A stretch of DNA of 64,000 nt from Berberis thunbergii (lineage: Eukaryota > Streptophyta > Magnoliopsida > Ranunculales > Berberidaceae): contig QNQO01006228.1 in NCBI GenBank assembly GCA_003290165.1, forward strand, positions 124,001-188,000, written 5' to 3'. Under the pieces are notes generated by a model that worked only from the letters and a program-made list of their open reading frames with translations, did not search any database and was not told the origin of the DNA. Shown piece by piece: positions 15,121 to 60,647 of the stretch (positions are counted from its first letter, which is position 1; each line of letters opens with the position of its first letter). The translations under genes and the position numbers were made by a program.

Positions 15121-15157
15121 TCCTCCATGTTAGAAGTGATTATAACGAAGTTAGAGA

Positions 15158-15228: not shown

Positions 15229-15497
15229 TTTGTAAGTGGCCAATTGTCTGTTGTAGCAATCCACATGGATGGGAAATCATGCTTGCAAACTTTTAGTGAA
15301 TATCGAATCTTCTTTATTCCATAACCTTGATGTTACAACAACAATTCAATGAAAAAATTTATCTATCGATCATTTCCCTTGTTATTGTCTATAGTTGTTG
15401 GCTCTACTTCTTGAAATGAATTTATTTTGTGAGTTTCCATTGAATTAATTTTATGCATGTGAGGCGGCTCAACTTTTCAAATCTAAAACCTTGATGG

Positions 15498-16228: not shown

Positions 16229-16381
16229 ATCTCTACATCGGCGAACAATTTCAGGCCACCACACAAGCATCACAAACAACCACATAAGCGTCTCCACCTT
16301 CGCATGAAAAATTGCCAAGACCCACTCAGTCAGAGAATCGTCGTCATGCCCCTAAGGGCCCTGCCCCTTGAGGCGTTAACA

Positions 16382-16759
16382 CTAAGAAAGCTTGATCAAA
16401 TTGAGACAATGCTCCAACTTGATCACTGGAACTATTTTTGTCAACATATCAATTGGATTGTCTTGAGTACTCACATTCTTCAAGAAAATCATCCCATCCT
16501 CGATGACATCCCTTAGAAAATGATACCGCACATCAATGTGCTTTGTCCGGGCATGATGAACCTGGTTCTTAGCCAAATGGATAGCATTCTGACTGTCACA
16601 TAACACTATCACATCATCCTGAGTAACACCCAAATCACTAACCAAGCCTCGAAGCCAAATGACTTCTTTCACCGCCTTTGATAGAGCGATGAACTCTGCT
16701 TCAGTAGTAGACAATGCAACTGTAGACTGTAACTGAGACTTCCAGCTCATCGGACCCAT
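16382..16759 (-). pseudogene. Copia RNase H domain
   Basis: A 125-codon open block with the hallmark [10 protein letters not shown] (catalytic Glu), then [10 protein letters not shown] (catalytic Asp), and [14 protein letters not shown], the conserved C-terminal motif of copia RNase H. It ends about 150 bp before the 3' LTR and follows RT on the same strand. Confidence 0.85.
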
Positions 16760-16855
16760 CGCTAATGTAAAACAATAACCTGTAGTTGATCGACGCCTAT
16801 CAAGATCACCAGCATAATCCGAATCAACATAACTTCAGATCATATTTGACACATC

Positions 16856-17933: not shown

Positions 17934-18077
17934 AGCCTGCGTATATGTGGTAGGAACATCATCATAACCATCAAGAACTGAGAATGTGCAAGCTGCGCCA
18001 TCCTCATAGCCAAATCTAAGTGGTGCACGTCTGACTCTAGGTTTTCTGCTTGCTGCTACAGACGGTGTTTGTAACTA

Positions 18078-19569: not shown

Positions 19570-19715
19570 TCAACCTTCATACAAATGGTCATAAGATTTT
19601 GCCATCAGTGCATGTGCTAAGTCACCCCCGATTAGAATATCATCTACCACATTCAGTGTCTCAACAAGATTCACTACGCCCTTACTCTCATTCTCTTACT
19701 TATTGTGATATCCTT

Positions 19716-20554
19716 CTAGTCTGGACGATCCCTTATGTAATGGCTTTTGTGCTTACATTTGTGAGATTCAACCTTAGACATATATCTGCCTTTTGATTTA
19801 GACCGATTCCTTCTGTAGTTGTTCCTCTTGTAATTTCTTCCCCTTGTTACCGAAAGACCACGTGCTTGAACCTCCTTATTCGAAGCATTCTTTCTGGAAG
19901 CTTTTGCAAGTACAACTTGAATAATATCACTAAACACAAATTTTTCTTCTTCAATGTTGTCATCTGATCAACAAACGATTCCCATTCCGGTAACAAAGAA
20001 ATTAACAAGAATAATGCTTTCTGACTATCTTCAAATTTAGCTCCCAAGATAACACAATCTGAATGTAAACATTCAAATTCATTTATGTGATCAGTCATGA
20101 GTTTACTTGGTTGCAACCTGAAAGTGAAAAGCTTCTTCGGTAGGTACATCACACTCATCTGATCATTCTGAAGATACATAGCCTGAAGCTTATTCCAAAT
20201 ACCCTGAGCCATCATCTCATCAATGAAGTTGTAAGCCACATTACTAGAAAGACACAAACGAATCGTACTACATGCTTTTTGATCCATTTTACTCCACTTC
20301 TCAATAACCTCAACCGTCGCATCATCTGATGATGGTTTCTTTTTCTCATCTATTGCATCAATCTAATCCAAACTAACAAGAATATCTTTACAATCCATCT
20401 GCCAAGCTTTAAAACTGTTTCTACCCTTGAATCGAACAATGTCGAACCCATGGACTTTCACATAGCCATCATCATGCGATGAAGAAAACCTTTCAGCCAT
20501 TTTATTTGACACATTCAAAGCACAATCACCAAACAACTGGCGCTCTAATACCAC
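19716..20554 (-). pseudogene. Copia gag remnant
   Basis: 20554-20363 starts the polyprotein (F-x-G-R-N-S-F-K-A-W-Q-x-x-C-K-D motif). 20287-19847 holds W-N-K-L-Q-A-M-Y-L and H-I-N-E-F, typical of copia gag (UBN2-type). Around 19750-19730 a degraded zinc knuckle (C-K-H-K-S-H-Y-I-R-D) lacks its first cysteine. Gag packages element RNA into virus-like particles. Confidence 0.75.
20542..20553 (-). other. Copia primer-binding site (initiator tRNA-Met)
   Basis: The minus strand reads TGGTATTAGAGC, one base from the common plant site TGGTATCAGAGC. It lies two bases from the 5' LTR end. Confidence 0.8.
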
Positions 20555-20555
20555 T

Positions 20556-21298
20556 TGTAAGGGAAATACTAGCTAAGGCAAATAATTTCAACACAACTCC
20601 TAGACCTAGTTGATGAAATTGAATGGCTAAAACATTATGCAAGTAATAACAAACAACAAGCAATATGAAAAAAATAAAGATGACACCAAGATTTATGTGG
20701 TTCGGCTTTGCCTACTCCATGGACGACGACTCTGTAATATTTTATTGTTATGGAAACACTTACTTGAAGATTACAACGTTGTCAAGCAACGATCCTTGAG
20801 ATTACCCAATCTCAAGCAAACAATACCACCAAAAGTTTTACGAAACTCACAAACGAAGAACACCCGAAATCACCCGATTACAATCCTTCTACTTGGCTAC
20901 TGTTTCATGCTGCACACACACTGAATCATGGCAAAGTCGTAGCCTATTTCACTTTGTGCTCGCAGCTAGTTTCATGCCATCTTGCTGCCCGTTTCACGCC
21001 GAGTTCGCGACCTCTTTCACACTGCGTATGCTGCCTTGTTTTAGCTGTGCGCGTGTTGCTAATTCACATTGTATTTGCATATTTCAATCTGTTGTTGTAT
21101 GCTTGCTTTAAAGAGAGGGACTTTGACTCCCACACAAATTGGGAGCCACAAAGGAATCATCCTTGTCCAACTCTTCCCAATAAATTGGGAACCAATCACA
21201 CAAGCACACAAGGACTTTGAGTCCTTATTTGTGAAAAACTCTTACTTTGATTCTTCCACAATCACACAAGGTCTTTGAGTCCTTGTCATTGTCTCATA
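20556..21298 (-). repeat. 5' LTR of the Tnt1-like copia element
   Basis: TGTAAGGGAAATAC at the inner edge, GTCTCATA at the outer edge (the other LTR has GTCTCACA), then GATGG. Confidence 0.9.
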
Positions 21299-24200
21299 GA
21301 TGGGGCCCTTTGAATGTTACCTAACACTATTTTGTTTCAACTGATTTTGTAACTTACAACTCTGTTTTTGTTATGTAGTGATGATGTAGTTTGACGGTTT
21401 CATATACTTGGCAGAGAGTCGCCTCTCACTACTTTCAGAACTGTTGGGAACAATTGATGTAGTAGATGAAGACTCGAATCATCCATCAAGTAGGAAAAAG
21501 ACCACCATTAGCAACATTGGACTTCATATAAAAAACATGGATCCAAATGAGAGGCACATACGAAGGCGACTATAGTTGTCAGTCACCTATTCAGGGGAGG
21601 GGTAATATGATGTGCTAAGCTACTGAGATAAAACCATCCCTTATGTTGGAAAGTCAAGCCTGATTCTCATGATTTCTCATAGGTAGTTTGTTGCTTGGAA
21701 GTTGTGAGATTGAGCCTCTACTTTTATTTCTGAACTAATGTAATATCTCTGTTGCCAGATGCTCAAGATGGTCCAATCTTTAAAAAACAAACATGAATGA
21801 AAAAATGTTGATCGTTTTCTTTCATTTTGAGCCTTGATTTGCGTAACCAGACTTCTATGTGGCAAACGATGTTCTCCATCTAACTTGAGGTCTGCATGGT
21901 GAACTACTGGTGCAACAATACAGTTTGCCTTGATAGTAGCAATGTAAATATTTACAAATAGATGATGAATAAAAGATTGTTTTATACTATGACATTTCTT
22001 TTGGGCTAGTGACAAACATAGATGTTGAGATTTTATTTGTCTTGTATTCACATTTCTTTGCTATCTTTTTGGCGCTGCTATTATATGTATTGTGTTGTGA
22101 ATTATTTTGTTATCTTGAAATTCATTTAAAGTGTAGTGATTTGAATGTAGAAGTAGTGTATGAAGTTTTTTTTTATTGTGTACTACTCATTTTTTTAGCC
22201 TTTTTTAGTCGGAAAATGTTTTAAATTAGCTATAGTTTCTATATGATACAAAGTGAAATTGAGTATCAACTTCAATTGAAATAAGTATTAGTTAGTGCAT
22301 GTCACTATATAAAATTCAGTATGAGGTGTAACATGAAACCAATGTTTAGTTAATATTAGCTGCATCATGTTGCAATTATTCCATTGGTATGGATTGGTTG
22401 ACGATACAAATATTAGGATCACCTCATTTGGTATGAGCACAAAAGCGTTACAATTAATTTTAGAAACTTGTATGAGCAATAACAAAAACCCGTAGTGAGT
22501 GCTTATACTGAAAGTTTTACCAGAACGCTACAAAATTTTCACTTTGCATTGTGATCATGAAAAAAATCTTCGATGTTTTTGTAAAATGTTATTAGGATGT
22601 TTTATCAAAACACGTTGAGAGATTTTTTGGCTTGCATTGCACCATAACAAAACATGTGCACGTGGTGCCTCTAATAACATAATATGGGTGCTTTTATTAA
22701 CCTCCTTATATTATCTACCTAGCAATCCCAACTAGCTAACTCTGGAGATGATCCTTCCCTCAAGGTTGGTTCCTTGCACAAGAAAGAACTGTAAAACTCA
22801 AGCTAATTTCCAAAATTGAGCACTCAAATGGAACAAGTAACCACATATGTGCTTTCATCTGGAGATGTGAGACCTTATTGCATGTTGGGGTCTTCCTACA
22901 TTTATAAGGTAGTTGTAAGTGTCCCCTTTTTTAATGCCCTAGTTGTGTTAGCGTATTGAAAATTTTGTTCAAGCATACCAACCAATGGAAGCCTATCTTG
23001 GTATATGTGTTGCAGTTCTCAACTTGTCAAGTATTCCCCATTTCCGAATCCATCATATGAGTAATTATTCTAATGCATTATCATGTCCGAGTTAGGAGAA
23101 TTCAAAGTAGGTTTCTATAGAACCCTATAATTGATATACTTTGGAACAAGGATCGTGATTTCGTTTTTCGAGTTAATTTCACTATATTGATTTTAAGAAA
23201 TATTTTGGTGTGTAAAGAAAAAAGCATAAAAATTTCGAGGATACATGAAATATATATAATGAATTTCAAGGATATATGAAATACGTGAAAAAATAAGATG
23301 CAAGTAAATAAATTTATTAAACACATTAAATGTAGTCTAGATACCAAGAAATGAAATAAACATAATATATATATATATATATAATGAATATATAAGTAAA
23401 AGAAATGATAATTAGAAAATCAAGGGGTGACTTCAAAAATCAATAAATAATTTACGAAAAAACCCCAAAAACCATTGAAAAAATGTAATTTTTGATAGCT
23501 GATTTTTGTTTTTTTTATGAAAACCTTTGAAAATTCAAAAAAACCTCAGAACTTTTCGAAAAATGGAAATTTTCTTTCGGCCTTTTTCTTTTTGTAATTT
23601 CCAAAAATGAAATTTTCGTTGAAAATTTTCGAAATCTCATTCCTTGCTTTGGACAGGTTGTCGGGTTATTATAAAAGTCTATCCAAACTGAACCATGCAC
23701 ACATGTTTGTCCCATAATTTTCTTGACACGTGTGCAGTTGAGGTTTTAGCACGTGGTGAGCATCTAAATATGAAGGCGGTAGGTTTGACTTTTGAAAAGG
23801 AAATATTGGAGGGAAACCCGCTTCATGTGCGCGGCACGCGTGAAGCTTTTCTTCTTTACCAAGTAAGAAAAACTTTAAGTTGAGAACAATTAAGAGGGAG
23901 GGAGGTGGGTTTGTAGGCAAGTTGATGCAAGTGCCAGGTTGTAGGGGAGGAGGGCTAATGAGGAACTAAGAAAATGGGTGGTTCAAAGGATGGGTTGTCC
24001 AATCAGATGAGAGTGCACGATAGGGGCTCCAACAAGAGTATTCGATCAACTTCGTCGGATAGTGATTGAAAACTACTTCAAGAGAGGATTCGAGGGAGAA
24101 CAACCAATTCAGAGGTGCCACGTGGATCCGAGGTAACAGAAGAACTTAGTCAACTAGATAAGAGAACAATTGGATATGCATTGCAGTGTTTGACAATGTT

Positions 24201-38142: not shown

Positions 38143-39210
38143 TTGCCAAAGACACTAAGTACACCTACTAACCCATGGCGAACTGGTGTACGTGAAAAAG
38201 GACCAGAAAAAGATCAAGATAGTCAGGAAGATTCGGGGGAACAACTGAGAAGGTCAACCAGACAACACAAACCAAATCCAAATTATGCAAACGTGGTGAT
38301 TAAAGAAGAAAACATTAGAGAACCCACAACATTTGAAGAAGTGTCTCAGAGCATGGTGTGGCAAAAGGCGATGGAAGAAGAAATCCAAGCTCTAAAGCAG
38401 AATCAAACTTGGGACTTAGTACCAAAACCCAAGGATGTGAAGCCTATATCATGCAAATGGGTGTACAAGATAAATACTCGTCCTGATGGCTCGATAGAAA
38501 GGTACAAGGCTCGATTGGTAGCTCGCGGGTTCTCACAGCAATATGGACTGGACTATGATGAAACATTTAGTCCACTAGCTAAGATCACTACAGTCAGGGT
38601 TTTGCTTGCACTAGCAGCAAGCAAATCTAGGAATTTATGGCAGATGGATGTGAAGAACGCCTTCCTGCACAGAGAAGTTGACCAAAAAATATACATGGAG
38701 CAACCTAGGGGGTTTGAGAGTAAAACTCAACAAAATTATGTTTTCAAGTTAAAAAAAGGCATTGTAAGGATTGAAGCAAACACCAAGAGCCTGGTATGGG
38801 AAGATAGCAGAGTTCTTAGTTCAGAGCGGGTACATAGTTGCACATTCGGACTCAAACCTGCTTATCAAATCCCAAGGAGGCAAACTAGCAATAGTGCTAG
38901 TATATGTAGATGATTTGATTGTCACTGGAGATGACAAAGAAGAAATCCAAGTTGTACGAAGAAACTTGGTGGTTCGATTTCAAATGAAGGAGTTAGGAGA
39001 ACTAAGGCACTTCCTAGGGCTCGAGATTGAACGAAGTGACAAAGGCTTATTCTTTTTTCAGCAGAAGTATGCTAGAGATCTTTTGAAAAAGTACGGGATG
39101 CTCGAGTATAAGCCGATTTCAACACCTATGGAAGCTAATGCTAAGCTATGTGTTGAAGAAGGCAAAGACTTGGAAGATACAACAATGTATCGTCAGCTTG
39201 TCCAGTCTAA
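38143..39210 (+). pseudogene. Copia reverse transcriptase remnant
   Basis: Frame 1 (38143 to about 38760) holds C-K-W-V-Y-K-I, A-R-L-V-A-R-G-F and Q-M-D-V-K-N-A-F-L-H. An indel in a run of A near 38755 moves the rest to another frame (38771 on) with Y-V-D-D-L-I-V-T-G and G-L-E-I. A second shift near 39200 leads into the C-terminal L-D-I-V-Y-A-V-G. The catalytic YVDD is kept. Confidence 0.87.
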
Positions 39211-41487: not shown

Positions 41488-41939
41488 TGCGGTTGAAGTG
41501 ATGAAGAATGTATAACCCCTAAAATTAGATTTTAGTTAAAATGAGATTTGATTGATAATCCAATTTAACTTTTACCATGTTGTTAACAATGATGTGGTTT
41601 TGGTCTCGGAGTATGATCGAGTCCATGACGACGACACACTACCTTACACCCACCCAACATTTTTAAAATAAATAGTGAATTCAATGCTAAGCCCACACAC
41701 TTTCACCTTATGCCCACTGCCTGGGTATTAAAATACAAATAAAACTCAGGACTTTAATAAGACGCGTAAATTAATTAGTACCACATTTGAAGAAGGCCGC
41801 ACGCAGTTTCCAGCAAAAGACCTGAGAGGACTTACGTGTGCTTCACTCTCATCCATGCCCGTTATATGCATAAACAACAATATCTGAAAGAGAAGAAGAA
41901 GAAGAAGTAGAGGTCGCAAATTGAAGATTGTTCATCATC

Positions 41940-42926
41940 ATGGACAGAGATCTGAAAGAACTTCACTCCCTTGGCTTCTTTGGCATCTTCAAAGAATCCT
42001 TCAAAGTCATTTCATCATCCAAAAACATCTTCTCCAAAATAACCATATCTTTGATTCTCCCACTCACCTTCATTTTCTTGGGCCAAATACTAATCTCATC
42101 TCTTATCTTTGACACAACCCTCAATCATGATTACTCCCTGGATGAAAATGACAACAACTCCTCTTCTTCATCAAATTCAATCTACTTTTGGTTATTCAGA
42201 GCTGTGTATTTTCTCTTGAATCTCATCCTCTCTTTGCTCTCCACAGCTGCTGTGGTCTACACTGTTGCTTGCATCTACACAACCAAACCCATCACCTTCA
42301 AAAGGGTCATGGGTGTTGTTCCAAAGGTGTGGAAGAGGCTTGTTGTTACATTTTTATGGAATGTTTTGTTCATGATTGGGTACACCATTGTTATGGTCAT
42401 TCTCATAGTTATATGGGCTATTTCTCTGGGAGCCACTACTGCTGGATGGATAGCTTTGGCAATTTTGATCATCTTCTATACAATTGGGTTTGTTTACATC
42501 AATGTGATTTGGGAGCTTGCAAGTGTGGTGTCAGTGTTGGAGATGATGTATGGTCTTAAAGCTATGAAGAAGAGCAGGATACTTATCAAGGGGAAGTTGT
42601 TGGTTGCTGGTTTCATCTTTGTTGTGGTGAAATTTTCTTTGGTAGCATTAGAAGCTTTATTTGAGGCAGTCGTGGTGGGTGATGATGGGGGCCTGGCTAT
42701 GGTTTTTAGGGTGCTTTTGGGGATTGGGTGTTTTGTGTTCATTTTGGTGATACTTCTGCTTGAGCTTGTATTACAAACTGTGATATATTTTGCGTGCAAG
42801 TCCTGCCACAATGAGATAATTGACAAATCGAGCTTGGCCGAGCATTTGGAAGGCTACCAGGGAGACTATGTTCGACTCAGGGGAGAAGGAGTTCAACTAC
42901 AACAACAACCAGAGTCGAATGCTTGA
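41940..42926 (+). CDS. Multi-pass membrane protein, plant family of unknown function
   Basis: A single 328-codon exon. I place the start at the ATG opening M-D-R-D-L-K-E-L, because plant relatives begin with this acidic helix followed by L-G-F-F-G-I; a TTG four codons earlier is only frame extension. Hydrophobic segments lie roughly at residues 40-58, 83-108, 137-165, 170-195, 218-240 and 250-280, so about six transmembrane helices. The soluble C-terminus (C-x-S-C-H-N-E region to the end) contains H-L-E-G-Y-Q-G-D-Y-V-R-L, conserved in the family. The family resembles Arabidopsis proteins annotated vaguely as transmembrane or poly(A)-binding-protein-interacting; the function is not established. 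The upstream (GAA)n-rich leader and 'ttatat' near 41862 could be UTR and TATA region. Confidence 0.88.
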   Translation: MDRDLKELHSLGFFGIFKESFKVISSSKNIFSKITISLILPLTFIFLGQILISSLIFDTTLNHDYSLDENDNNSSSSSNSIYFWLFRAVYFLLNLILSLLSTAAVVYTVACIYTTKPITFKRVMGVVPKVWKRLVVTFLWNVLFMIGYTIVMVILIVIWAISLGATTAGWIALAILIIFYTIGFVYINVIWELASVVSVLEMMYGLKAMKKSRILIKGKLLVAGFIFVVVKFSLVALEALFEAVVVGDDGGLAMVFRVLLGIGCFVFILVILLLELVLQTVIYFACKSCHNEIIDKSSLAEHLEGYQGDYVRLRGEGVQLQQQPESNA

Positions 42927-46622: not shown

Positions 46623-48280
46623 ATGGAAAAAGATTGGATTGAACATAATCGTCTCAGCACCGAATATGAACTAGGGCTCCGCACCTTCCTTAATGATGCT
46701 TTTGATTTGTCGTCTTTTCATGGAAAGATAAAATGTCCATGCAAAAGGTGTCATAACAGGCATTTCCATGTTCGTGACACTGTTCAGGAACATCTAATCA
46801 TTTCTGGGTGGGATAGTCAGTCTGCCAAAGGTACATGGGTACACCACGGTGAATTGGAAGTAATGGATGCATGGGCAGATGAGGAAGAGGAAGAAGAAGA
46901 GGACGATATGGAAGGCATGTTACATGACGCATTTGGGCATTCGCCAATTATGGGTAAACAAGAAGACATTCACCATGAACCAAATGAAGAGGCAATGTCA
47001 TTTTACAAGTTAGTTGAGGAAGCTGAACAAGAGCTATACTCTGGTTGCAAGAACTTCAACAAGTTGTCCTGCCTTGTCCACTTGTTTCACCTAAAGTGTC
47101 TAAATGGTTGGACCAACAAATCTGTAACTCAACTACTCAAATTTCTTAAAAGGTGCCCCCCCTTGGTGAATGCTTGCCTGATTCGTTCTACAAGGCGAAA
47201 AAAATTGTGAATGATCTTGGCCTCGGTTATAAAAAGATTGATGCTTGTCCCAATGGTTGTATTTTGTATCGAAATGAATTTACGGATGCAGAATCATGTT
47301 CTATATGCCACTTATCAAGGTGGAAACAAGCAGATGATGGATCTAATGTACTTACTAGTAAGAGACGTGGGGTAGCTGCGAAGACAATGTGGCATTTCCC
47401 ACTTATTCCAAGGTTACAGAGGCTCTTTATGTCATCTAAGACAGGATCAAGCATGCGTTGGCATGCAGACTCACGAGCACGGGACGATATCCTATGACAT
47501 CCTACTAATTTTATGGCCTGGCGACATCTCGAAAATCAATTTCCAGACTTTGCTGTTGATGGTCGAAATGTCAGGTTAGGATTGGCAAGTGATGGCTTTA
47601 ACCCATTTGGAACTCTTAGTATTGCACACAGCACGTGGCCAGTTGTCTTAATTCCATATAATCTACCGCCATGGATGTGTATGAAGCAACCTTTCTTTAT
47701 GATGTCTTTGCTTATTCCTAGACCTCGTGCTCCAGGCAATGATATTGATGTATATTTATAGCCATTGATTGATGAGTTGAAGGAATTATGAGATGTTGGG
47801 CGTCTAACATACGATGCATCAAGGAAAGAAAATTTTGTGATGTGTGCAACTATCTTATGGACAATTAATGACTTTCCTGCATATGCAAACTTGTCTGAGT
47901 GGAGCACAAAAGGAAAGTATGCATGCCCCACTTGCAATGTGGAGACAACACGTCATTATCTGAAAAACTCTCGAAAGTTTTGTTATATGGGTCATCGTCG
48001 CTTTCTAGATCAGACTCATAGATATAGACGTCAAGTAGAGTCATTTGATGGAAAGATTGAATTATGATCTCCTCCCCCTAACTTGACTGGCCAACAATTG
48101 CTAGCCGAGGCAAGTAAGGTGACAATAAAGTTTGGGAAGCACCATGCACAAGTAGTTGGCTCTAAGCACAAAAGGGATTGTGAAAGAGTAATAGGGTGGA
48201 AGAAGAAAAGTATTTTCTTTTCATTGCCTTATTGGGAATATCTCTTAATACGCCATAAAGCTGGGGAGCCTTTCTCGTAA
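46623..48280 (+). pseudogene. CACTA tnp2-family transposase, broken
   Basis: The ATG at 46623 opens a 195-codon frame with a transposase-associated domain: K-D-W-I near the start, then the metal-binding-like C-P-C-K-R-C-H-N and H-L-I-I-S-G-W. An indel in a C7 run near 47152-47158 shifts the frame. From 47153 on, one frame carries the tnp2 domain with stops at 47495, 47759, about 47790 and 48065. It includes I-D-A-C-P-N-G-C, M-R-W-H-A-D, F-x-L-x-S-D-G-F-N-P-F-G type sequence (L-A-S-D-G-F-N-P-F-G) and Y-A-C-P-T-C. It is truncated at L-P-Y-W-E-Y-L. Intact proteins cut CACTA ends. This copy is inactive. Confidence 0.88.
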
Positions 48281-48319: not shown

Positions 48320-49529
48320 GAGTTAGGCAGGGTCTTGATCTCATTAGAGCTTTATTCCAGCAATTCCTTTCAGTAGAGTATGTTCATCCCTCCCTTGTAT
48401 CAATCGCGCTTCTTATTCCATGTAGGCTGCTATCAATTTGTTTTTTTTATTGAAGTTTTTTATGTGCAGTTTTCCTATAATTTTGTGGAGTTGGTTATTC
48501 TTTATAGGGATTTGTCCGTGGATGGTTCAGCTGACCCCTTCAATGTTGGGTATAAAAACTGCGTTTTATTGTACTTTACATGGTTCTCATTAATGGGCGT
48601 GTTTTGATTTTTGATTTCATTTGGTCCAAGTTCTTGAATTTGAGGTGTTTTTCAATGTTTTGAGTTGATGAGGTTTCTGAGTTATAGTGTGTGTTGAGTC
48701 CGAGATAGAAATATTGGTTTTTTAATGTTGTTTGGTAGTCTATGGCTTTTGTGTCTGCTTTGTTATCTGATAATTTGGGGTCCTAATTTGACGGATTTTT
48801 TTTTTGTTTGTCTTTGTTAGTTTTGGATTAATGGGTGTGTTTTGATTAAATTAGTTTATCTTTATGAGATTTCATGTTCATTGCTTTAATTATGTTATTG
48901 GAATTTTGGTTTAACTTCAGGCTGTACTTCACAAGAATTCAATTAGGCTCTCCTCCAAAAGAATACTATGTGCAGATCGATACAGGAAGTGACATCTTGT
49001 GGGTGTCTTGCACCTCCTGCAGTGGCTACCCCAAATCTAGTGGACTTGGGGTAAAGTTCCCTTTTCTTTTCCTCATTCAGTTTATGTTATTTTTGGTAGT
49101 CAAGTTTGTACAACAATGAATGAAACTTGTTATATTAAGTAATTCTTAAGATTACATTTCTTTTTGTCGAAACAGATCTAGCTCGAGTTTTTTGACCCGA
49201 GCAGCTGGAGATCAGCTTCTGTGATTTCTTTTTCGCATGAGACTTGTGCTATGACAATTCAAACTTCTGAGGCTGGGTGCTCTCAGGATTCTCAGTGTGC
49301 TTACTCCTTTCAATATGAAGATGGCAGTGGGACTGCAGGATATTTTGTGTCGGATATGCTATTTTTTAACTCAATTCTTGGGGAACCTAATATCGCAAAT
49401 TCTTTAGCTCCCGTCATTTTTGGGTTGGTTTTTATTACCGTGTCTAAATTTGAGTAATGCCATTTTGAATTTTTCTTTCTAGCAAAACTTGAAGTGTTCC
49501 TTGTTGTCACTACACCAAAAACCCCCATT

Positions 49530-49885
49530 AGCAACGGTTCTATACCGTGGGCGTAACCCATTGCCACGGCTAAGAACCGTGGGCTACAAAGGCGTCGCGA
49601 AATTCTTTGTAACGGCTATAAACCGTTGCTAAACATTGTAGCAACGATTTTATGCTTGAATAGGGGTGGTGATTTTCAGCATTTAGCCACAGTTTTAAAC
49701 CGTTGCAAAAAACATAGCAACGGTTTTTAGCCGTGGCAAAAATAGCCACGGTTTTAAGCCGTGATAAAGTGTGGATACTAGCAACAGTTTAAAACCGTGT
49801 CTAATTAAGTAGCAACGGTTTTAAGCCGTGGCAAGGTAGCCACGGTTTTTAGCCGTTGCAATAGTTAGCCACGGTTTAAAATCGT
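49530..49885. repeat. Left subterminal repeat array of the CACTA element
   Basis: About a dozen units of 'agcaacggttttaagccgtg' or its complement, alternating 'gcaacgg' and 'gccacgg' forms. Pairs form perfect short palindromes such as CCACGGTTTTAAGCCGTG. Confidence 0.9.
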
Positions 49886-50079
49886 GGCAAAAGTTTTTTT
49901 TAAATTTTTTTTTTTTGCTATCAAATGACTTTGAGTCATTGAGTCAAAATCTATCAAATAATGGAGGCAAAGTCATGTAATTAATAAGAAAATGTATTAC
50001 ATTGAGTCAAAATCTATCAAATAATATCTCAAATACAATGATAGTCAAGGAAATAGTCATCTGAAATGATAGTAGAAGA

Positions 50080-51667
50080 TTTGAAATAATATACTCAGTT
50101 GCTAAATGTAGTATGTTTTTGTCATGCTCATCAACCCATTCGATGGCCTCTGGAATTTCTTCAAGGATTTTCTCAACAAGTTCAACTATCCCAAGCTTTA
50201 TAGCCAGCAGAAGGGGTTCTTTAATGTTGTCAGTCTCTTCGGAAGACATGTTACTTGAACCATGTATTGTTATCAGCTTATTTCCCAGCTTTAGTGCATA
50301 ATTATGCTTGTCCTTTACATCATCCACTATTCTTAAACATCGACAACCTGCATGTTGCTTCTTATAGTCAACTTTAGGACTAAAACTTGCAGATATTTGA
50401 ACTCAGTAATATGAAGCTAGTTCAGAATGTGATCAAAATTTGGGTTATTTATCAATTCATTTGTAAAGTACATACATCTAATAAACCGTTGGATTCCTGC
50501 AAGAAGAAAGATAATAAGTCAGTCATTGGAATTGGAACAAAGAATATTAGGAAATAAGACTTCAAACTTCTTTAGGAGTCTGATTATTTAATTTCTTGCA
50601 TTAGTGGCACTATCAATCACGACAACAACTAATTTGCTAGTTATGTTGTCTCCTTCATCTCTCAATTTGACACATGCAAATCAAGAAATGGTCCCAAGAA
50701 AAAAAAAATCTTAACAGAATGTTGAATGAGAAAGCTTACTTGTACATTATAAAAAATAAAAAATAAAAAAAATAGAAGTATGGTTTCGATGGGGATGCTG
50801 TACCTGATATAGAACTGTTCTCGAGCTCCATCACCTTTGCATTCCTCCTGTGTCTGCTAACAGGAAGACCTGTTCAAATATATATTTTTTTTAAATCCCT
50901 AACAGAATGTTGAATGAGAAACTTGTTTATATTCAAAGTAATCAGTTATTAGTTTGCCTCCTGTACATGTGTTTGTGTGATGATCAATGACACTCTTTAA
51001 AATGATTTACTTTTTTATCAGTGTCTTTAATCTTCAATTACTAATAAGAATAGGAATATAGTAATAAAACAAAGCAAAGATGTCATACAAATGTAGACGA
51101 TAATTGCCAGCATCTCCATTGGAATGAATGCAGATGATCCAATATTCTGGTATTTGTACATCGTCCCACTCCTGAAGGATGTAGGTGATTGGGCTAAAAG
51201 ATGTAGAGGTGTAATCCCCGACAAAGTACGAGCCAAAGCGAGTGAAGGACACTTCTCAATTATCTTTAGTGCCAAACCTGTTTTATATGCATACCAAATA
51301 CTTCTCAGGCTCACATATGATGAACTTTTTGCATAATCATATGTGCAGGAAAGAAAAGAGCAGAGTACCATAATGTTCACCCTTCACAGCAGCATGAAGA
51401 ATGGTAGACAAGTCATTTCTTCGATGTAGATTCTCATTTCTATTACTCTCTAAAAGAAAGTGGAGTATTTCCCTCCTCCCATATGCTGCAGCCCAAAACA
51501 AAGGTGTCTCTCCAAGCAAATTGCGAGTAAAAATCAAGCTCTCCTCCATGTGCACCATGACATGGACAATTTCCATTGAACCAACTCTGATGGCTTCATG
51601 GAGTGCAGTGTTTCCTTTACAATTTTGTGCTGATAAGCTATCATGTGCAGGCAAAGGCAGACAAGCA
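50080..51667 (-). pseudogene. Captured fragment: ACD6-like ankyrin-repeat protein
   Basis: Three exons on the minus strand. 51667-51369 has N-C-K-G-N-T-A-L-H-E-A-I and G-E-T-P-L-F-W-A-A-A-Y-G, two ankyrin repeats, ending at a GT. 51324 to about 51166 has L-A-L-K-I-I-E-K-C-P-S-L-A and G-I-T-P-L-H-L-L-A. 50326 to about 50080 has Y-A-L-K-L, P-L-L-L-A-I-K-L-G-I-V-E-L-V and K-N-I-L-H-L-A. This is the ankyrin part of plant ACD6/PGG-type membrane proteins, linked to defence in characterised members. The PGG transmembrane domain is absent: the piece stops about 200 bp short of the left subterminal repeats. Confidence 0.78.
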
Positions 51668-51869
51668 CTGATGAGCACAAAAAGACATGATTTAGGGTCA
51701 ATTTAATAAAAGACCTTAGCTGTTACAACAACAAATTTGCTCTAAAATTAAAAAGTAACTTATGATCCAACAGAAAGACAACTACTGAACCATTAAACAC
51801 CAAACCATAACCCAACATATGACAAACCGTAAATATACAACATCGCAAGTAGGAGAAGACGGTACAAAC

Positions 51870-52108
51870 CTGCTCATCTTTCCTCAATGGCCTTCTTGTC
51901 ACCAGCCCCATGAAGAATGACATTGTCATCCTTGGAGATAGTTACCTGCAAATTTTGTCGCATGTTATGGCCTATTCTGCAGTGAAGTTAGGTCAACATG
52001 GAGAAGAAAAAAAAAACTAGTTTCAAGAGTATAGCTTATCTTTTTGCAAGTGCCAAGCATATCTAGTTCCACCTTGTCAAGGTTCATACCAAGTTCTTTT
52101 GTTGTGAG
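51870..52108 (-). pseudogene. Captured fragment: chloroplast chaperonin-60 beta subunit
   Basis: Two exons. 52108-52040 reads E-L-G-M-N-L-D-K-V-E-L-D-M-L-G-T-C-K-K. 51945-51870 reads V-T-I-S-K-D-D-N-V-I-L-H-G-A-G-D-K-K-A-I-E-E-R. In plastid CPN60-beta these segments are adjacent and lie in the apical/intermediate region. The donor of the first exon is AT instead of GT, and a 2-base loss after E-E-R breaks the frame. CPN60-beta helps fold plastid proteins such as Rubisco subunits. Only about 48 residues were captured. Confidence 0.78.
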
Positions 52109-52444
52109 CTAGAAAAGATTAGACAAAGGCTTGTTAAAGAGTTAATGACTAGAAGAATACTAGCAACCAGCCTAATGATTCATCAGTCAAACATCAAATT
52201 ACTCCTTGCAACTTGCAAATAAAATTGCAAGTTCAAAATGCAAATTGCAATAACAAACTCTAAATGCCAATGACCATCCTACCAACTTGCAAAGATCCAA
52301 CGCATCACGCAAGCCTAGCACCCGATTTTTCCCGTATACAAGCAACCTGACCACAAACCAGCACGTAACAGAGCAATTATGTCAAATGACTAGAGAAAAA
52401 AACATAAGGCAGTACACAAATTTATGTAATTGAGCAAATCTTAC

Positions 52445-52960
52445 CTCAAATAATCGAAGTGTTTCTTGGTCAATCCTGAATTTGTGACAGAGAACAGGAT
52501 CAGCAGCCTTAACACATTGACAATAGGTTCCTGCTTATGGATCATTTCTTCAATGTACTCAAAGCATCTGCATCAATGAAACATCTTACTTTATTTAATG
52601 AAAAGAATGATGCACTCATTCCATTAAGAATTTCTTATAAAGGCAAGAAATCCATCTTACATAATACTATGTTACCAAAAGTGCAGCTAGAAGTATGATT
52701 CAACTCACATGTCATAACTCTCCCCCTCTACAACCAGGTGCTCCATGTCAAGTCGTCCAAGGAATGAAGGCTTTGATGTGAATGTAGGTAAGTGCTGAGC
52801 AAGATTTATGTGCCTCTGTGACAAATTAAGCAGAAGGTGCAACATAAGATTCATGAGGCTACTTGAACCAACGGATACATCATAGGACAGACTTACACTG
52901 ATTTCTGGTAATGAATTGAGCTTCCTTACAAAGTCTTTCAATTCAGAGACAGTTTGATTT
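52445..52960 (-). pseudogene. Captured fragment: VPS33 (Sec1/Munc18 family)
   Basis: Three exons. About 52960-52897: Q-T-V-S-E-L-K-D-F-V-R-K-L-N-S-L-P-E. 52815-52709: R-H-I-N-L-A-Q-H-L-P-T-F-T-S-K-P-S-F, then L-D-M-E-H. 52567-52445: C-F-E-Y-I-E-E-M-I-H-K-Q-E-P and L-R-L-L-I-L-F-S-V-T-N-S-G-L. These are consecutive in plant VPS33, a core subunit of the HOPS/CORVET tethering complexes acting at the vacuole. The second and third exons keep AG/GT edges and open frames, so capture was fairly recent or included introns intact. The N-terminal Sec1 domains and the last third are absent. Confidence 0.82.
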
Positions 52961-53029
52961 TGTATACATGACATGCACATCAGTTACATGTTCATCCAAA
53001 ACCGTTCTATCACAACCCAAAGCACTTCA

Positions 53030-54560
53030 AATACCAATTGTCGGAAGAGGAAAAAGGTAATATGCAGTTTGCAATTTTAATAGTAACACACTGAAAAGTT
53101 TGTAAACAATGGACCTCATTTTAACACACTGAGGGATGGGAAGCTTCTTCTTTGAAACGAGAGTGAAACGGACTTTAGACCGGAAAACCTGGTTGTTGCC
53201 TGTTAAACATGAACCAGAAGATTTCAAAAATCATCAATAAAATACCTACTACTACTATCTGCATTGCAACTTAAAATATGCAGTCAAGTTATTAGAATAT
53301 TCAGCCAAGTTCACAGCAACCAGCCATATTTAACATGAAACAAAAACAATTACAAATGTCCAATTATACTGGAAATATTCCAATCTTAAAGACCAACAAT
53401 ATATTGAAATCCAACGCATATTACTGACAGTCAAACATAAACAAGGGCACCGTGCGAAACAGGGGAGAACCCATGTTGAAAGCTCCTATCAGCTTCTATG
53501 TGCTCAGTGCACATGCAGTCCAGCCAGCCTCGCAAATGGAAACTGACAGAAACCAGGCTGAGTGCACCTCGTTCTTGCGCGCATTGTGATCCTCACAGCT
53601 GAATCGCCTACACCTCCCCTGCAGGCCAAACAGAGCCGCAAAGCAGAGTCGTTCCGGAGTTATCACCATACCAACTGTAGAAGTTATCACCATACAAGTA
53701 AAAACATGACTCAACTCAGCTTCACGTCAGAGGGGGTTCTCATTATACTCCCATCATTCCCATGGAGTGTCAATCTAGCCATTAAGGATGTCAACATCTG
53801 CTTGGGAGACAAACTGAACTTATGTTCTACTGGCAAACACGTTATAAACATCAAAGAGCCCCAGTTAGACAGCTTGGAGTTCAATAGCCAAAATGTTTTT
53901 AAGCGAAGTACCTGCACTAAACATCAACCCTCTTTATTGTTTCTGATAAGTCCACATCCAGCTAGAGAATTACAAAGACATGCATCGCCAAGAAAAAAAA
54001 TTCAGATAAGCAAATAAGCTAGACTAGCAACGCCAAGAAAAAATAAAGTAACAATACTAAAATGAAAAACAATCAGGCTTGTGAAAAATTCAAACCATAC
54101 CAAATGTCGACATTGACATGACCATGGGATCATCAAACTCCAACTATAATAAGCAAATAAATGAAAATTAGGGACAACTGGTTCAAAGGGATACTAGACT
54201 TTTTGCCAAAAAAAGGACAACAAAATTATGCTTAGCAACACCTGAGTAAGTCAGAAAAGCAGATTAAATGCTGATAAATCCTCATTTGCTGTTGGATTTG
54301 TTGAGGCCTTGACCTCAACTATCAGATATCATGATGAAGGAATGAGCAAGCAGTCTGCACATTATGTTGTACAGAAATGAGTTTTTAAAACTAAAATATG
54401 CATAATTTGAATGAACCGCTGCCAGAGCTTATTTGCCCCCTATATAGTTGATGGTAGTTTATAACAAACATAACAAATAAAGAGTATCCCACAAACAAGA
54501 TACTATGAATCTACTTATCCACGTATGAAACAAACACTCACAATAAGATGTAACAGATTT
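53030..54560. other. CACTA interior, no recognised gene
   Basis: Short minus-strand open stretches at 53227-53103 (R-F-T-L-V-S-K-K-K-L-P-I-P-Q) and 54148-54095 (F-D-D-P-M-V-M-S-M-S) look exon-like but were not identified. 53460-53920 is GC-richer than its surroundings and could be captured UTR or coding sequence. Confidence 0.35.
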
Positions 54561-54576
54561 GAAAATTCCAACTAAC

Positions 54577-54936
54577 CTCCAGAATTTGGCGCCACTCCTT
54601 TCCAGTTAACTGTGTAAGAAAGAGTAATACAAACTTCATCAGATACTGATGACAGTTAGTCTCCTCCAAATATGAATACGCATGATCAAATTAAGAATAC
54701 GCAGAACGGTAAAATATATTAGATGAAACACATAGAAAAGGCATGAATAATTGAGTACCTGAAGAAAAGTGAGAAATGACTGCCTCAATTCATATTTGGA
54801 ATATATCAGGAAAATAAAACTACTGGATTAAATAAAATAAAGAAAACCAACTGACCTTATGAAGACTATGTCAAAGGGACCTTGATCTGAGAGTGGCTTG
54901 CTTTGATCAATCACAACAAATAATATCCCTTTATTT
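54577..54936 (-). pseudogene. Captured fragment: inositol polyphosphate kinase (ITPK family)
   Basis: Two exons with AG/GT edges. 54936-54856 reads K-G-I-L-F-V-V-I-D, P-L-S-D-Q-G-P-F-D-I-V-F-I. 54609-54577 reads L-T-G-K-E-W-R-Q-I-L-E. In plant inositol-tetrakisphosphate 1-kinases these segments are contiguous (G-P-F-D-x-I-x-H-K-L-T-G-K-x-W) and precede the ATP-grasp core. ITPKs phosphorylate inositol phosphates on the route to phytate. The ATP-grasp catalytic part is missing. About 38 residues were captured, with the intron between. Confidence 0.75.
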
Positions 54937-54999
54937 CTGGACCAAACATAACATGCATTTAGTTGGCACTAGTAAAAACATTAAAAACAGTAATGAATA

Positions 55000-56400
55000 A
55001 TAGGAAATATAGTTTAAGAATGATTAAATTTATGACAACTAAGTAAGTGCATAATAGCATGCAGAATGCAACATTGATCATGCTTATAAGAATGAGCAAA
55101 CATATAAAGCAGCACATACACAGTTGATCATATATTGGCTTATTAGAGAATATACACAGAGTTTAAAAGTAATAAGATATTCTGCTGAAGTACCATATGA
55201 AAGTGAATATACGAGATTGCAATTTTCCCAAATGAGCAACTTAGAATCGGGGGTGGGATAGCATCATTGAAGGCAATTCATACATAAAGTTTTTTTTTAA
55301 TCTTTATACCCTCTACTTCTAGCCCTTTGGTAACGGTGTATGCACAATATGTCCCATTATCGAATAAGTCATCCCCCAAAACAATGGCAGATGCAAACCA
55401 GATACAGATCAATATGGAATATCAAAATTTTTATGAGGGTTATCTCCACTATAAAAATCACTTCCACAAAACTTCACATAATTTGATGTTTGTAGCCTAT
55501 TAATAAATACGGTAAGGAATTATGGATTTGTCTACTTTCAGCAATAACTTCACCATATAATCTTTCAGAATTGGCAAACTTTTTGTTAATGTGGTTAAAC
55601 TGTCAAGGAGATCACTTCAAAACTCCTGAGGGTGTAAATATTCAATAGGTAAAGTGGACGATGTGTTCATCTCTCCATTAAACTATCACTTTTCAAATAC
55701 AGTGTGCATAATCTGAGAAGACGCCACTCCATCCTTCTTGAGATTTGGAGTTAGGCGCCTTGACTTTTTGTTTTACCACATGCTTACAAATAATGCTAGA
55801 ATCGAATGCAACTGAAACGATAAATTCACTGACATGTGAAAGAAAGATAATTTTATATCGATCTAACACAGACAGAAGGTCAATGTGGCAGCCATGCTCT
55901 GATAAACATTGTACATAATTCCTATTTTTCAAAATGTTCAATCCATAAATATTCCCAGAACATCATGTTTTTGTTCTTTGTTTTGCAAGATATATTCAAG
56001 CATGCATGTGGTAAGCGCTCAAAATTACACTTTACTCGTATTGCTAAATCCTCAGTTTTGGTGTTATACTGAAGTGTTGAAAATTTATGATAATCAGGCT
56101 GAATATAAAAAAGAAGAAACTACCGCTAATTTTCCTTAGTTAAGGTCGAAAGAGGAGAAAGAAGAAAATCACACAAGGCACTAGAAAACATCAAAAGGGT
56201 CACAATATTCACCATTTAATGGCCTGAAGGCACAGAGATGTTACAAGCTACACAACACGAACAAGCATATGACAAGTCATTTATGTACTAAGCCTTGGGT
56301 TTCAAACCTGGAAAACAACTCACATTTTCTGACAAACATGAGTAGCACCGTGACTACCATGAAGGAGTCAAAGGCTCATCTAAAGCAGTGAGGGGGGCTT
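55000..56400. other. CACTA interior, AT-rich, no recognised gene
   Basis: Long AT-rich tracts resembling introns or intergenic DNA. An 82-codon minus-strand frame at 55693-55941 has no recognised features. Confidence 0.4.
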
Positions 56401-56402
56401 AC

Positions 56403-56540
56403 AGAGTAGTGAGGGATAGCAGAAACAACATTCATGGGCTGCTTTTGTTCAGCATCAACAGTAGAGAGTGCAAAAAGTGCAGTGTGAAACAGTTGGGATG
56501 ATCCAGTCCCTACGATGATATGACGATTGTCAGTCACCAC
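56403..56540 (-). pseudogene. Captured fragment: tryptophan aminotransferase-related (TAR/alliinase-type) protein
   Basis: One 138-base exon with AG before and GT after. It reads N-R-H-I-I-V-G-T-G-S-S-Q-L-F-H-T-A-L-F-A-L, then N-V-V-S-A-I-P-H-Y-S. The motif V-G-T-G-S-x-Q-L-F-x-A-A-L-Y-A-L and V-S-A-x-P-Y-Y-S is typical of plant TAA/TAR PLP enzymes near the cofactor phosphate site. TAA1/TAR enzymes make indole-3-pyruvate for auxin; TAR3/4-like relatives are less characterised, and which one this was cannot be told. The frame of this exon is fully open. Confidence 0.78.
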
Positions 56541-57876
56541 TATCATTTAACCCACAACACCCCAATTAGCTCATCATCCATCAATAATAAAAATGTAAAG
56601 AAAAAAAAACTACAAACATAACATCAATAATTCATAACGCTTACTGATCCAAATTGATAACAGCGTCTGGGGAAAGTTGCTTCTTGTTCATGTTGTTTGT
56701 TCCACAAATGTTGTTTACTTCTTTCTTCTCTTCAAAAAAAAAAAATCTCTTTTGTTTTGGCCTCTCTCTTTTGCAAGATTTAGAAACAATGTGTCCTCCA
56801 ACAATGGTTGGATGTTCTGTATTTATAGACAAATAGAGAAACTGATTACAACAGCCACCCAAATAAAATACAAAGAGAGAGATTTTATTTTCCAAGGTTG
56901 AAGAGATTTGTTTCTGATAACGCACTTTCAACTTTGTTCATACAATTATTCAAAGGTTAACCTAATAGGCAACAAGAGCACACTCAACATAGTAATAGTA
57001 TGAAAAGATATCCGAAGGTTGAAAACTTGATGCATTTTGTTTTGGAAATACACACTAAAAGTCACAGGTTCTGAAGCACAAACTATTTAAACGCAACATG
57101 TCTTCTCAATCTACTCTTAGATGTTCCATTGACATATATTTATTCATGAATAGATAGAAGTATATATATACTTGTTCTTCTCAAATTATACTGTCTCAAT
57201 TTCGTTGGTAATCTTCCATAAACAAATCAGATTTCGTTGGTAATCCAAGAGGAAAGCACTGAAATTGTCTGACCATGTTCTGGTCACCGTATACAAAGCC
57301 AAGATAAAGCATAAGTTTTTGAGAATTAATAGTTTTGAAACTAGCAGAAAGCACTGAAATAATTTACTGAAAAAAAAAACTCTTATTAATCTACAGCTGC
57401 AACAACAGCAACGACAGCAGAAACAACAACATCAACAGCAACAGCAGATGCAACAGGAGAAAGGATCCTGTTGGTTGTATTTTGGGAATTGGTTGCATAA
57501 GAAAAGAAGTCAGAGTTTGGGAATTGGTTGTATAACTTAAACATGGTAGTGAAAATGCATAAAACAAATGCTAGGAGCAATAAATTTTCAAATAAAACTT
57601 TGAATTATGGTTGGCATGTTGTCTTGGAACATGTGCTTTGATAAAAACAAGCATAGCAGACAATCACAGAAAGTAAAATACGAGATGTTTGATGGATGGA
57701 TGGTTCCCCATTTTGTAATCAACTTTAAACAACTTTAAGTTCCTAAAAAAAAAAGTGAAAACCTGTCCTTAAATGTGAAAATTGAATCGTTCATACCCTT
57801 AGAATCAACAGAAAATAGATTTAAACATGTCATACCCTTGGCCATTCTCCAAGGTTCTACATGGGACTGATATTGT
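56541..57876. other. CACTA interior, no recognised gene
   Basis: A glutamine-codon-rich run on the plus strand (57398-57470, CAACAGCAA-type triplets after an AG) could be a captured Q-rich exon of a transcriptional regulator or a simple repeat. Its strand differs from the other captured fragments. Confidence 0.3.
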
Positions 57877-57995
57877 TTACCATGACTTAAACTGTGCTGC
57901 TTGGTTGTTTGCTCCTATAGTTGCAGCCTTCCACCCACCATAGTTTCCACTGGGATCACTCATGTATAGCTGGAAGCCAAAGTTCTTGTCCCATC
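57877..57995 (-). pseudogene. Captured fragment: 20S proteasome alpha subunit (PAC type)
   Basis: After an AG acceptor the frame reads [16 protein letters not shown], then G-G-W-K-A-A and I-G-A-N-N-Q-A-A-Q, then runs into a stop. This is a core segment of the proteasome alpha-4 type subunit (plant PAC1/PAC2), part of the outer ring of the 20S protease. The frame is open across the exon, and its end at N-N-Q-A-A-Q probably marks an original exon junction followed by intron sequence. Rightmost, so first in transcription order, of the captured fragments. Confidence 0.8.
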
Positions 57996-57999
57996 CTGC

Positions 58000-59760
58000 A
58001 AATAGAAATGAAACACCAAATGAGTTAACCATGCCATAAGCAAATCAGGATTTAAGTTGAAGTAAAGCTTACCACCTTTGTCAATGGTATTCAAACATAT
58101 CAAAATGTGTGAAATAGTGATGCCAACTACAATAACACACACACATCTATCAGAATTCCATAAACAAGCAGCTAGAAAACCTTAATTTGTTTCCCTCGCC
58201 TCACACATCAATATCAATAACTACAACTACAATAACACACAGAGACACAGAAAAGTGATTTTTAAATTCAGATTGAAAAGCAAAGGGAGGTAATGCAGTC
58301 TGGATGATGCAAGAAAGTAATCGGAAATAGATCGAGAGAAAGAGAGGATACCTAAAGGAGAACTTCAGTAAGGCAGAGGTTTGTAACTCAAATGTATTTC
58401 CTGCAAAGTGGAAATATAAACTTTACTTCTTTCTTAAAATAAATAAATAAATAATCATCAAATATTATTGAATAAATTGTGTGTATGATAAATATTATTG
58501 AATAAATATTATTACTGTGTGGACACTGACGATATTCAACTGCAATTCGAATTCAATTCTCTGAATTGAAATTCTGGTGCAACCATTGCAAATTTTGAGT
58601 TCTCTTCAACACCTGCAGGGTCAGCACATATACTTAGGGGAATAACAAGTCCAATACACAACCTAAATAGCAAAAACACTCAAGCATGAAGGCTTTCTTC
58701 CCACAAAAAAAATGTTATATTCTAAGTAGCAAGGCAACATAAGAATCTTGAAAGAGTGTATGACTCTTGGAAATATATTATTTTGGTGCATAAAAAATTC
58801 CCAAATTTTGGACAATAAAAACTAAAATAATGGGTGAGAAATCACTTGATTCCCCCCAGATCCCACAATCTCGACTAATCTTGCTGTAGAAGTCCCTAAC
58901 AAGGCTATCTAAATATGAAACCTTAAAATACTAGAACAATAACAAAAATCTGGATGAATGATGACAACTGCAGTGACTGAATTTAAATAACTCACAAGAT
59001 TGACAACTGAATGTGGGAGACTCTCCCCTTTAAAAAAGTTCAACCTAAACCTAAAGAACATAGCACCCACTTTAAGAAACTTTACAAGGAACCCACGAAA
59101 AATTGACTCACTTGAACAATGAACTCTCCGTCTTGCAGCTTTTGAACACCATCTTATCCAAAATCCATTATACAACAAGTTAGTTTTTCTAATTGAATGA
59201 AGAAACACTTTCAATCAAAATGCCAATCCATTTACTAAACCAAAAGTAGTAGTATAAGTAGCAGTAGTAAGCATCCAGTTGATTGAATTAACTTTTGCTC
59301 TGCATGTTCATTTCGGGGAGCTTTCAAACATACTTAAATAACTTGTAACATGTATCTTGTTCACTGATAAAAATTTAAGCTTCACAACAGGGGAAGTTAA
59401 AGACCACATTTCGGAGAAGTTCAGTCTATACAGAACATCAGTCTCCTTATCAGTTTCTTCAATGGAGGTGACAAACATATAGTCAATTAAAATTCTTTGA
59501 ACAGAATAACAATAATCAAGTTTCTTCTCATTAGCTTCTTTAACATCCGTCAATAACACTGATAGACAGAAGTGAAGAGATGAAAAAACATTAAAAATAG
59601 CAGCTATATACCCAAGAAAATGCTGGGAAAATCTACACATGGTGCAAAGAAAAATTTAGAACAGAAGCAAGTTGATTAAATAATAAATTGATACCAGGAG
59701 ATAAACACATTTGAAGATCTTAAATGGAACCCTAAAATGAAAATGGAAGGAGGCGAAACC
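58000..59760. other. CACTA interior, no recognised gene
   Basis: AT-rich, with short minus-strand open frames (59640-59308, 110 codons; 59214-58909) lacking recognised motifs. Confidence 0.4.
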
Positions 59761-59764
59761 AAAC

Positions 59765-59970
59765 CGTGAAATTTTCAAGCTCTTTCTGACTCTGAAGCTC
59801 TCTCCTCCTCTATCCTGAAGCTCTCTCCTCCTCAATCTCTCCTCTGCGCCAAACCTCTCTCTGACTCTGAAGCTCTCTCCTCCTCAATCTCTCCTCTGAG
59901 CCAAACCTCTCCACCTCCTCCTTTGATTTAAACTTTGATTTTCTCTCCTCCTCAATCTCTCCTCTTCAAA
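59765..59970. repeat. CT-rich tandem repeat
   Basis: 'ctctctcctcctcaatctct' and 'gactctgaagctctctcctc' units repeat about five times just inside the right subterminal array. In minus-strand transcription this would be a GA-rich leader. Confidence 0.85.
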
Positions 59971-60124
59971 ATGGTCAAAAATCTCTCCCAATGACCGCGC
60001 AACCTCTATTATTCTCCCCAATTTTTTTCGCCAAAGCGGGAAATCAGTTTTCGCCCGAGCGGGAAAGATGTTTTCGCCAGAGCGCGTAAGTCTCCCTCCG
60101 CGCATGCGGTCCACGTGCAAAACC

Positions 60125-60380
60125 CTTAGATTTAGCAACGGTTTTTGGCCGTTGCTCCCTATAGCCACGGTTTATAGCCGTGGCAAACACACGCCTATAG
60201 CCACGGTTTTAGGCCGTTGGGCACTATAGCAACGGTTTTTAGCCGTGGCAAACACACCAACGGGTTAGAACCATGGCCAAGCCTTATTTAGCCACGGTTT
60301 TAGGCTGTTGGCCACTATAGCCACGGTTTGTAGCTGTAGCAAATAAACCAACGGTTTAGGGCCATGGCCACCTCCGTGTA
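60125..60380. repeat. Right subterminal repeat array of the CACTA element
   Basis: About ten units of 'agccacggtttatagccgtg' and 'agcaacggtttttagccgtg' types, matching the left array. Confidence 0.9.
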
Positions 60381-60647
60381 GCTAAATAGGCCTTTTGGTG
60401 TAGTGTGTGTTTGAAACATGTGTAGTAATTATCAGTCGGGGGATTTGACAAAACCGGATAGAGCAGTTGATGGGATAATTGGGTTTGGGCAAAATGAAAT
60501 GTTTGTCATCTCACAACTGGCTTCACGAGGATTAGCACCAAGAGTGTTTTCTCATTGCTTGAAAGGAAAAGATGGTGGAGGGGGCATATTAGTTCTTGAA
60601 GAGATTGTTGAACCGAGTATTGTCTATAGTCCACTTGTTCCATCACA

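Follow-up and report, generated by a model that had tools for sequence, protein, structure and literature searches.

The segment at positions 49508-60405 of a 64,000-nt stretch of Berberis thunbergii DNA (contig QNQO01006228.1, positions 124,001 to 188,000; the whole stretch is referred to here as the window) is confirmed as a complete CACTA transposable element of about 10.9 kb. It is one copy of a multi-copy, non-autonomous mosaic CACTA family. The element contains fragments of six host genes, all on the minus strand, and in nine mosaics every host-gene piece recognised by Pfam faces one way relative to the arms. The kind of element is already known (Pack-CACTA, Tpn1, Tgm-Express1), and the strictly one-way cargo, 20 genes to 0, is the unusual property. 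It bears on how transposons acquire host genes and on whether the direction of capture is random.

The element starts with CACTACACCAAAA and ends with TTTTGGTGTAGTG. The outermost bases form a perfect inverted repeat (13/13), and a 3-bp target-site duplication, TGT, is present in both flanks. A family of 22-nt subterminal repeats near TAGCAACGGTTTTTAGCCGTGG has nine members at the left end and five at the right. The boundaries proposed by a model that saw only the letters (the sequence-only reading), which had called them firm, are thus upheld. CACTA-type inverted termini, the 3-bp duplication and the subterminal arrays place the element in the CACTA superfamily, and host-gene pieces between the termini, with element and cargo transposed as a unit, are the properties of Pack-CACTA elements. 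Helitrons have neither terminal inverted repeats nor a target duplication; both are present here, and membership of that group is rejected.

Copies were sought in the assembly containing the window (2.24 Gb, 11,732 contigs, designated here by C-numbers), and all copy counts are lower bounds. With the left 793 bp as query, 40 of 4,772 candidates were scored and show a full-length match at at least 17 places, window included. Other left-end matches among the same 40 cover 189-793 (two) or end at 572 (18), 546 (two) or 534 (one). The right 706 bp is found at 40 or more places, as is a piece spanning the TAR and PAC1 fragments; at the 40 scored places the latter is always 94-100% identical, and these are read as element copies. 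Five pairs of copies have left flanks that are 99-100% identical and look like two haplotypes per site.

Eleven copies were fetched and compared. The structure of the window element, termed type A, is complete at C138 (99.6% identity, the window's own site), at C1755 and C3443 (96.3%, one site) and at C932 (96.4%). Two more type A copies, C70 (97.0%) and C9414 (95.8%, same site as C932), were read over about 9.7 kb. Identity at insertion sites other than the window's is therefore 95.8-97.0%, and the copy at C1755/C3443 has a matching target duplication of its own. The termini do recur with the gene pieces between them, and the "single" element of the sequence-only reading is replaced by a family with at least 17 full-length left ends. 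The whole six-piece assemblage moves as a unit, because complete copies with the same six pieces are present at other sites.

The interior of the family is modular: relatives share the arms and some pieces, and carry other genes. Five cargo types were read end to end. Type B (C5807, C295/C7230 and C486/C8091) is 9.4-9.5 kb in length and has in common with type A the left arm, the ankyrin piece, part of the HSP60 piece and the VPS33 piece. In place of the rest there are pieces of a SPINDLY-like TPR protein, asparagine synthetase and clathrin heavy chain, the last read by eye and without a Pfam match. The C998 element (13,162 bp) is like type A from the HSP60 piece to the right end, with different left cargo. 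The C79 element (11,010 bp) shares the ITPK-TAR part, followed by LOG and APD-type pieces, and the C314 element (10,762 bp) shares a TAR piece and the arms and carries glutathione reductase and a glyoxylate-reductase-like piece. The arms of these three are weaker matches (left arm 74-91%); their duplications are CAA, TAC and TTA. In all, perfect 3-bp duplications are present at eight independent sites (TGT, ATC, ATT, ATT, AAA, CAA, TTA and TAC). Further 5-kb interiors adjoining left arms were read in C196, C9, C30, C2220 and C11, where C30 repeats C9 at 97%. Part of the segment at 53366..53968, which is missing from the C998 element, is also present in C9, C30 and C79. Short direct repeats mark the ends of the segment differences: AGCAAT where types A and B differ and AATTA where type A and C998 differ, as expected of microhomology-mediated repair. 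Another transposon as the source of the type B asparagine synthetase and clathrin segment was considered and rejected: by eye the segment ends show no inverted repeat, only the 6-bp AGCAAT.

Contig C6650 has three left arms (region 10424-22423, then 22033 and 33349) at spacings of 11,309 and 11,316 bp, and the flank is the same at the two left arms read. The near-equal spacing and shared flank indicate a tandem array of units of about 11.3 kb, in which a CACTA end is accompanied by a piece of BT1 and by remnants of retrotransposons.

Ten stop-free minus-strand pieces of the window element were given to Pfam; five have clear matches at or above the curated cut-off and the rest have none. The ankyrin fragment matches at 3e-18, and we take it to be ACD6-like. 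The VPS33 fragment matches the Sec1 family at 1e-9 when the exons are joined into one peptide; the unjoined frame that runs through an intron has no meaningful PDB match. The ITPK fragment matches the ITPK N-terminal domain at 1e-8, or 7e-13 with joined exons, and PDB entry 8oxe at E=0.003. The TAR fragment matches Alliinase_C at 2e-12, and PDB 3bwn. The proteasome fragment matches the Proteasome family at 5e-11 and PDB 7qve_j at 4e-24. It had been called PAC-type in the sequence-only reading; the proteasome identity stands and can be specified as the 20S alpha subunit PAC1. The sixth fragment is from a chaperonin. Its exons have AG acceptors, its first donor is AT, the joined two-exon peptide matches no Pfam family, and the PDB match is weak (1iok, E=0.08). 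The peptide scores 185 against a stretch of mitochondrial HSP60 and 74 against a stretch of plastid CPN60-beta, and the earlier plastid assignment is replaced by a mitochondrial HSP60-type one. Apart from this label, Pfam, PDB and the joined-exon peptides agree with the six minus-strand fragments first described. Beyond domain level, the names of the captured genes are presumptive.

The orientation of cargo was determined by a Pfam scan (E<=1e-3) of all six frames with stops written as X, which avoids a bias from expected genes. The nine mosaics scanned are the window element, C5807, C314, C998 and C79, together with the 5-kb interiors of C196, C9, C2220 and C11. The first set gave 0 families on the plus strand and 39 on the minus strand (27 frames each), of which 25 were listed. 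The second set, from deeper inside C998, C314 and C79, gave 0 and 3 families (nine frames each). The 39 include many WD40 or ankyrin models that overlap one another, and the families collapse to 19 genes: ankyrin, proteasome, Sec1, alliinase, asparagine synthetase, TPR, glutathione reductase, NAD_binding_11, CRM, LOG, APD, BT1, ABC2_membrane, WD40, alpha-galactosidase, exportin, ABC1 kinase, adaptin/coatomer and ResIII (Dicer-like by eye). With ITPK from targeted scans there are 20 host genes, all sense and none antisense. Sixteen are above the Pfam curated cut-off, Sec1 only via joined exons; NAD_binding_11, CRM, ABC2_membrane and ResIII are below it. A sign test gives p=1.9e-6 for 20/20, and 16/16 would give 3e-5; these values apply to elements picked for arms or cargo in common with the window, in which two pieces may have been captured together. 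For the window alone (6/6) p=0.031, in agreement with the 1 in 32 first estimated for six captures facing the same way, and the family makes the case far stronger. Further sense pieces were recognised by eye (clathrin, sucrose transporter, bHLH, MDAR, sugar transporter and ABCC). These are left out of the count because the minus strand was printed more fully than the plus. The Dicer-like helicase piece on the sense strand of the C998 element (ResIII, E=5e-4, below the curated cut-off) reads as a fragment of the silencing machinery within a transposon.

The PAC1 piece derives from a gene that is still present in the host. The search for this parent used a PAC1 protein as query, and 150 of 284 candidates were scored. 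Intact intronless PAC1 frames are present in C675, C1507 and C10467 (92%). The 130-bp piece in the window is 98.5% identical to the gene at C1507 and 96.9% to that at C675, so that the parent search suggested with the first annotation is answered for this fragment. Within the same scored candidates the element's PAC1 piece, by itself just one exon piece, occupies at least 74 places, which is a warning to annotators. An element in C40 has a left arm matching at 73%, and no right end was seen in the 7 kb read. It shares its upstream PAC1 junction with the window and aligns to the parent over 752 columns, about half of them coding and the rest 3' flank, with no poly(A) tail at the end. The window lineage is a shorter version of this C40-type capture; captured pieces are later trimmed, since the related C40 element holds the longer form. 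The C40 piece, at about 3074-3885 of C40:2176500-2183499, is an open 142-aa PAC1 C-terminal stretch in a CACTA-armed element. Longer PAC1 pieces like it are present at about 40 other places among the 150 scored, many without stops.

Very probably the window element is a copy of a gene-capturing, non-autonomous CACTA family of the Pack-CACTA kind; it would be mobilised in trans, and its sense bias would come from the loss of antisense captures. The pieces would have been taken up as DNA, to judge from the spacing of exons and the splice signals in the window and from the 3' flank and missing poly(A) in C40. No transposase domain was recognised in the window element, either on the plus strand or, on the minus strand, in the targeted Pfam scans and among the 25 listed of 39 families, nor was any transposase family among those listed for the scanned interiors of the mosaics. 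A transposase from elsewhere would move the family, and new DNA may enter in gap repair or when neighbouring copies are re-mobilised. From a putative promoter near the right end, the pieces would be transcribed in sense and spliced into a chimera. Captures in antisense would disappear if their RNA opposed essential genes, or if they drew silencing or disturbed the processing of RNA. The anatomy supports a family built up by repeated rounds of capture, exchange and trimming.

Several observations weigh against parts of this account. The site at C932, a ninth, has family arms but unequal flanks, AAG and AGT. A transposase-bearing relative with these arms was not found, although no direct search for one was made. 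Movement is not expected to require the element's own transcript, and hence the importance of orientation to the element is unexplained. Finally, the C40-type PAC1 piece differs from its parent at 6/360 coding and 31/387 3'-flank positions. Constraint on the parent alone could give part of this contrast, and selection on the cargo may give some of it.

For the one-way cargo there are two live explanations, loss of antisense captures and polar capture. In the second, which we hold to be possible though rather unlikely, a single orientation arises from the start, either because repair always brings pieces in at the same end of the element or because they are copies of transcribed genes, and selection need play no part afterwards. 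The count of 20 sense to 0 antisense and the evolution of exons like non-exon sequence are both consistent with it. However, the same counts follow from the loss of antisense captures, and the microhomologies found fit ordinary repair. If capture is polar, the family is a natural one-way exon collector that works through directional or transcription-linked copying. The family offers many captures behind common arms, longer and shorter captures of one parent gene, and the 20:0 orientation count; a genome-wide survey could separate polar capture from later antisense loss.

The cargo might instead be a source of small RNAs by which its parent genes are silenced, as the sequence-only reading suggested. 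The cargo is multi-copy, and the identity of the PAC1 piece to its parent is close enough for targeting by small interfering RNAs. But the recognised cargo is all sense, so that one transcript would yield no antisense RNA, and purely sense pieces alone would not be expected to yield it against the parents. This role is improbable.

That the pieces are kept in sense by selection, because a chimeric RNA or protein is useful, is still more doubtful. Seven type A copies from four sites were compared, and in most of them the majority of exon stretches examined remain open, e.g., the third VPS33 exon in six; splice signals are found beside several of them, and the C40-type PAC1 piece is nearly intact. 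Yet the exons in these copies vary as freely as the rest: 46/988 columns are variable at codon positions 1 and 2, 24/494 at position 3 and 399/8128 in non-exon sequence (p=0.90 and 0.81). Length changes that break the frame are present in PAC1 (2/6 other copies), TAR (2/6) and HSP60 (1/6), ITPK exon 1 differs from the window by one base in length in 6/6, and there is one stop each in the TAR and ankyrin exons; some of these may be assembly errors. No coding constraint is visible on the type A chimera, which disfavours a coding function protected by selection, and functional fusion proteins from type A appear disfavoured likewise. That two unrelated CACTA ends flank a host region by chance, with the pieces not cargo at all, is contradicted by the recurrence of the full 10.9-kb unit elsewhere with its own duplications; nothing was found in its favour, and it has practically no probability.

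Comparable elements are described in the portions of the literature available. The CACTA family Tpn1 of Ipomoea nil keeps its ends and has interiors swapped for host genic regions, with some chimeric transcripts (PMC5105172). It resembles the present family in conserved terminal regions, host genic interiors, 3-bp duplications and mostly non-autonomous members; the difference is that up to six recognised genes per element are found here, all one-way, a rule not found for Tpn1 in the available part of that paper. The 5.7-kb soybean CACTA element Tgm-Express1 contains fragments of five unrelated host genes, which are spliced into a host transcript as cassette exons (PMC1947982). Both elements have several unrelated host fragments with exons and introns; however, Tgm-Express1 is transcribed from the host F3H promoter, whereas the window element is 10.9 kb and belongs to a mosaic family. 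Maize Pack-CACTA have the most distinct loci among Pack types (PMC8903248), and it is proposed that they gain new DNA when neighbouring insertions are mobilised (PMC8903248, PMC13317346). These too are non-autonomous CACTA elements with pieces of several loci, but CACTA Pack-TYPE elements of rice and maize are mostly low-copy (PMC8903248) and the cargo here is multi-copy. Maize Helitrons show, among related elements, a similar stepwise gain of several gene fragments (PMC3288121); they are rolling-circle elements. PMC8978399 discusses the idea that captured pieces camouflage transposons from silencing. A strand rule for the cargo of CACTA elements was not found in the accessible parts of the literature searched, which included Helitrons and Pack-MULEs and covered few subscription journals.

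Table 1. Features of the CACTA element and its cargo in the window (positions of the 64,000-nt stretch)
Feature	Position	Strand	Basis
Left TGT target duplication, 3 bp	49505..49507	.	flank comparison
Left terminal inverted repeat CACTACACCAAAA, 13 bp	49508..49520	+	end comparison
Left arm, 572 bp, common to elements with other cargo	49508..50079	.	
Left subterminal array, 9 x 22-nt repeat	49529-49887	.	repeat search
Ankyrin fragment	50100..51672 (exon stretches 51370-51672, 51165-51281, 50100-50333)	-	Pfam
Chaperonin fragment, mitochondrial HSP60-type	51877..52108 (exons 52040-52108, 51877-51945)	-	peptide scores
VPS33 (Sec1 family) fragment	52444..52950 (exons 52900-52950, 52708-52815, 52444-52566, introns between)	-	Pfam
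Segment of about 600 bp missing from C998 element, AATTA direct repeats at bounds	53366..53968	.	
ITPK (inositol phosphate kinase) fragment	54577..54938 (exons 54855-54938, 54577-54609)	-	Pfam, PDB
TAR/TAA1-type aminotransferase fragment	56403..56670 (exon stretches 56644-56670, 56403-56537)	-	Pfam, PDB
PAC1 (20S proteasome alpha subunit) fragment, 130 bp	57891..58020	-	Pfam, PDB, parent alignment
GA-rich repeats, proposed leader; promoter role putative	59777..59957	-	
Right subterminal array, 5 x 22-nt repeat	60133..60310	.	repeat search
Right terminal inverted repeat, 13 bp	60393..60405	-	end comparison
Right TGT target duplication, 3 bp	60406..60408	.	flank comparison

A transposase-associated domain (PF13963, Pfam 6.5e-18) is encoded at 46623-47497 (+), within a few kb of the element's left end. 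It is probably a remnant of another CACTA element, and neither arm of the present family has a match at this position. A lone CACTACACC motif is found at 485-493, where neither family arm matches. Retrotransposon remnants are present at 10111-10479 (-) and 38143-38910 (+), with integrase core PF00665 and RVT_2 reverse transcriptase PF07727. The open frame of 332 aa at 41928-42926 (+) has no Pfam match and is likely the host gene of this stretch. It matches plant proteins that are uncharacterised or annotated as binding polyadenylate-binding protein 1-B; the best 120 of 693 matches come from across the eudicots, with a best identity of 55%.

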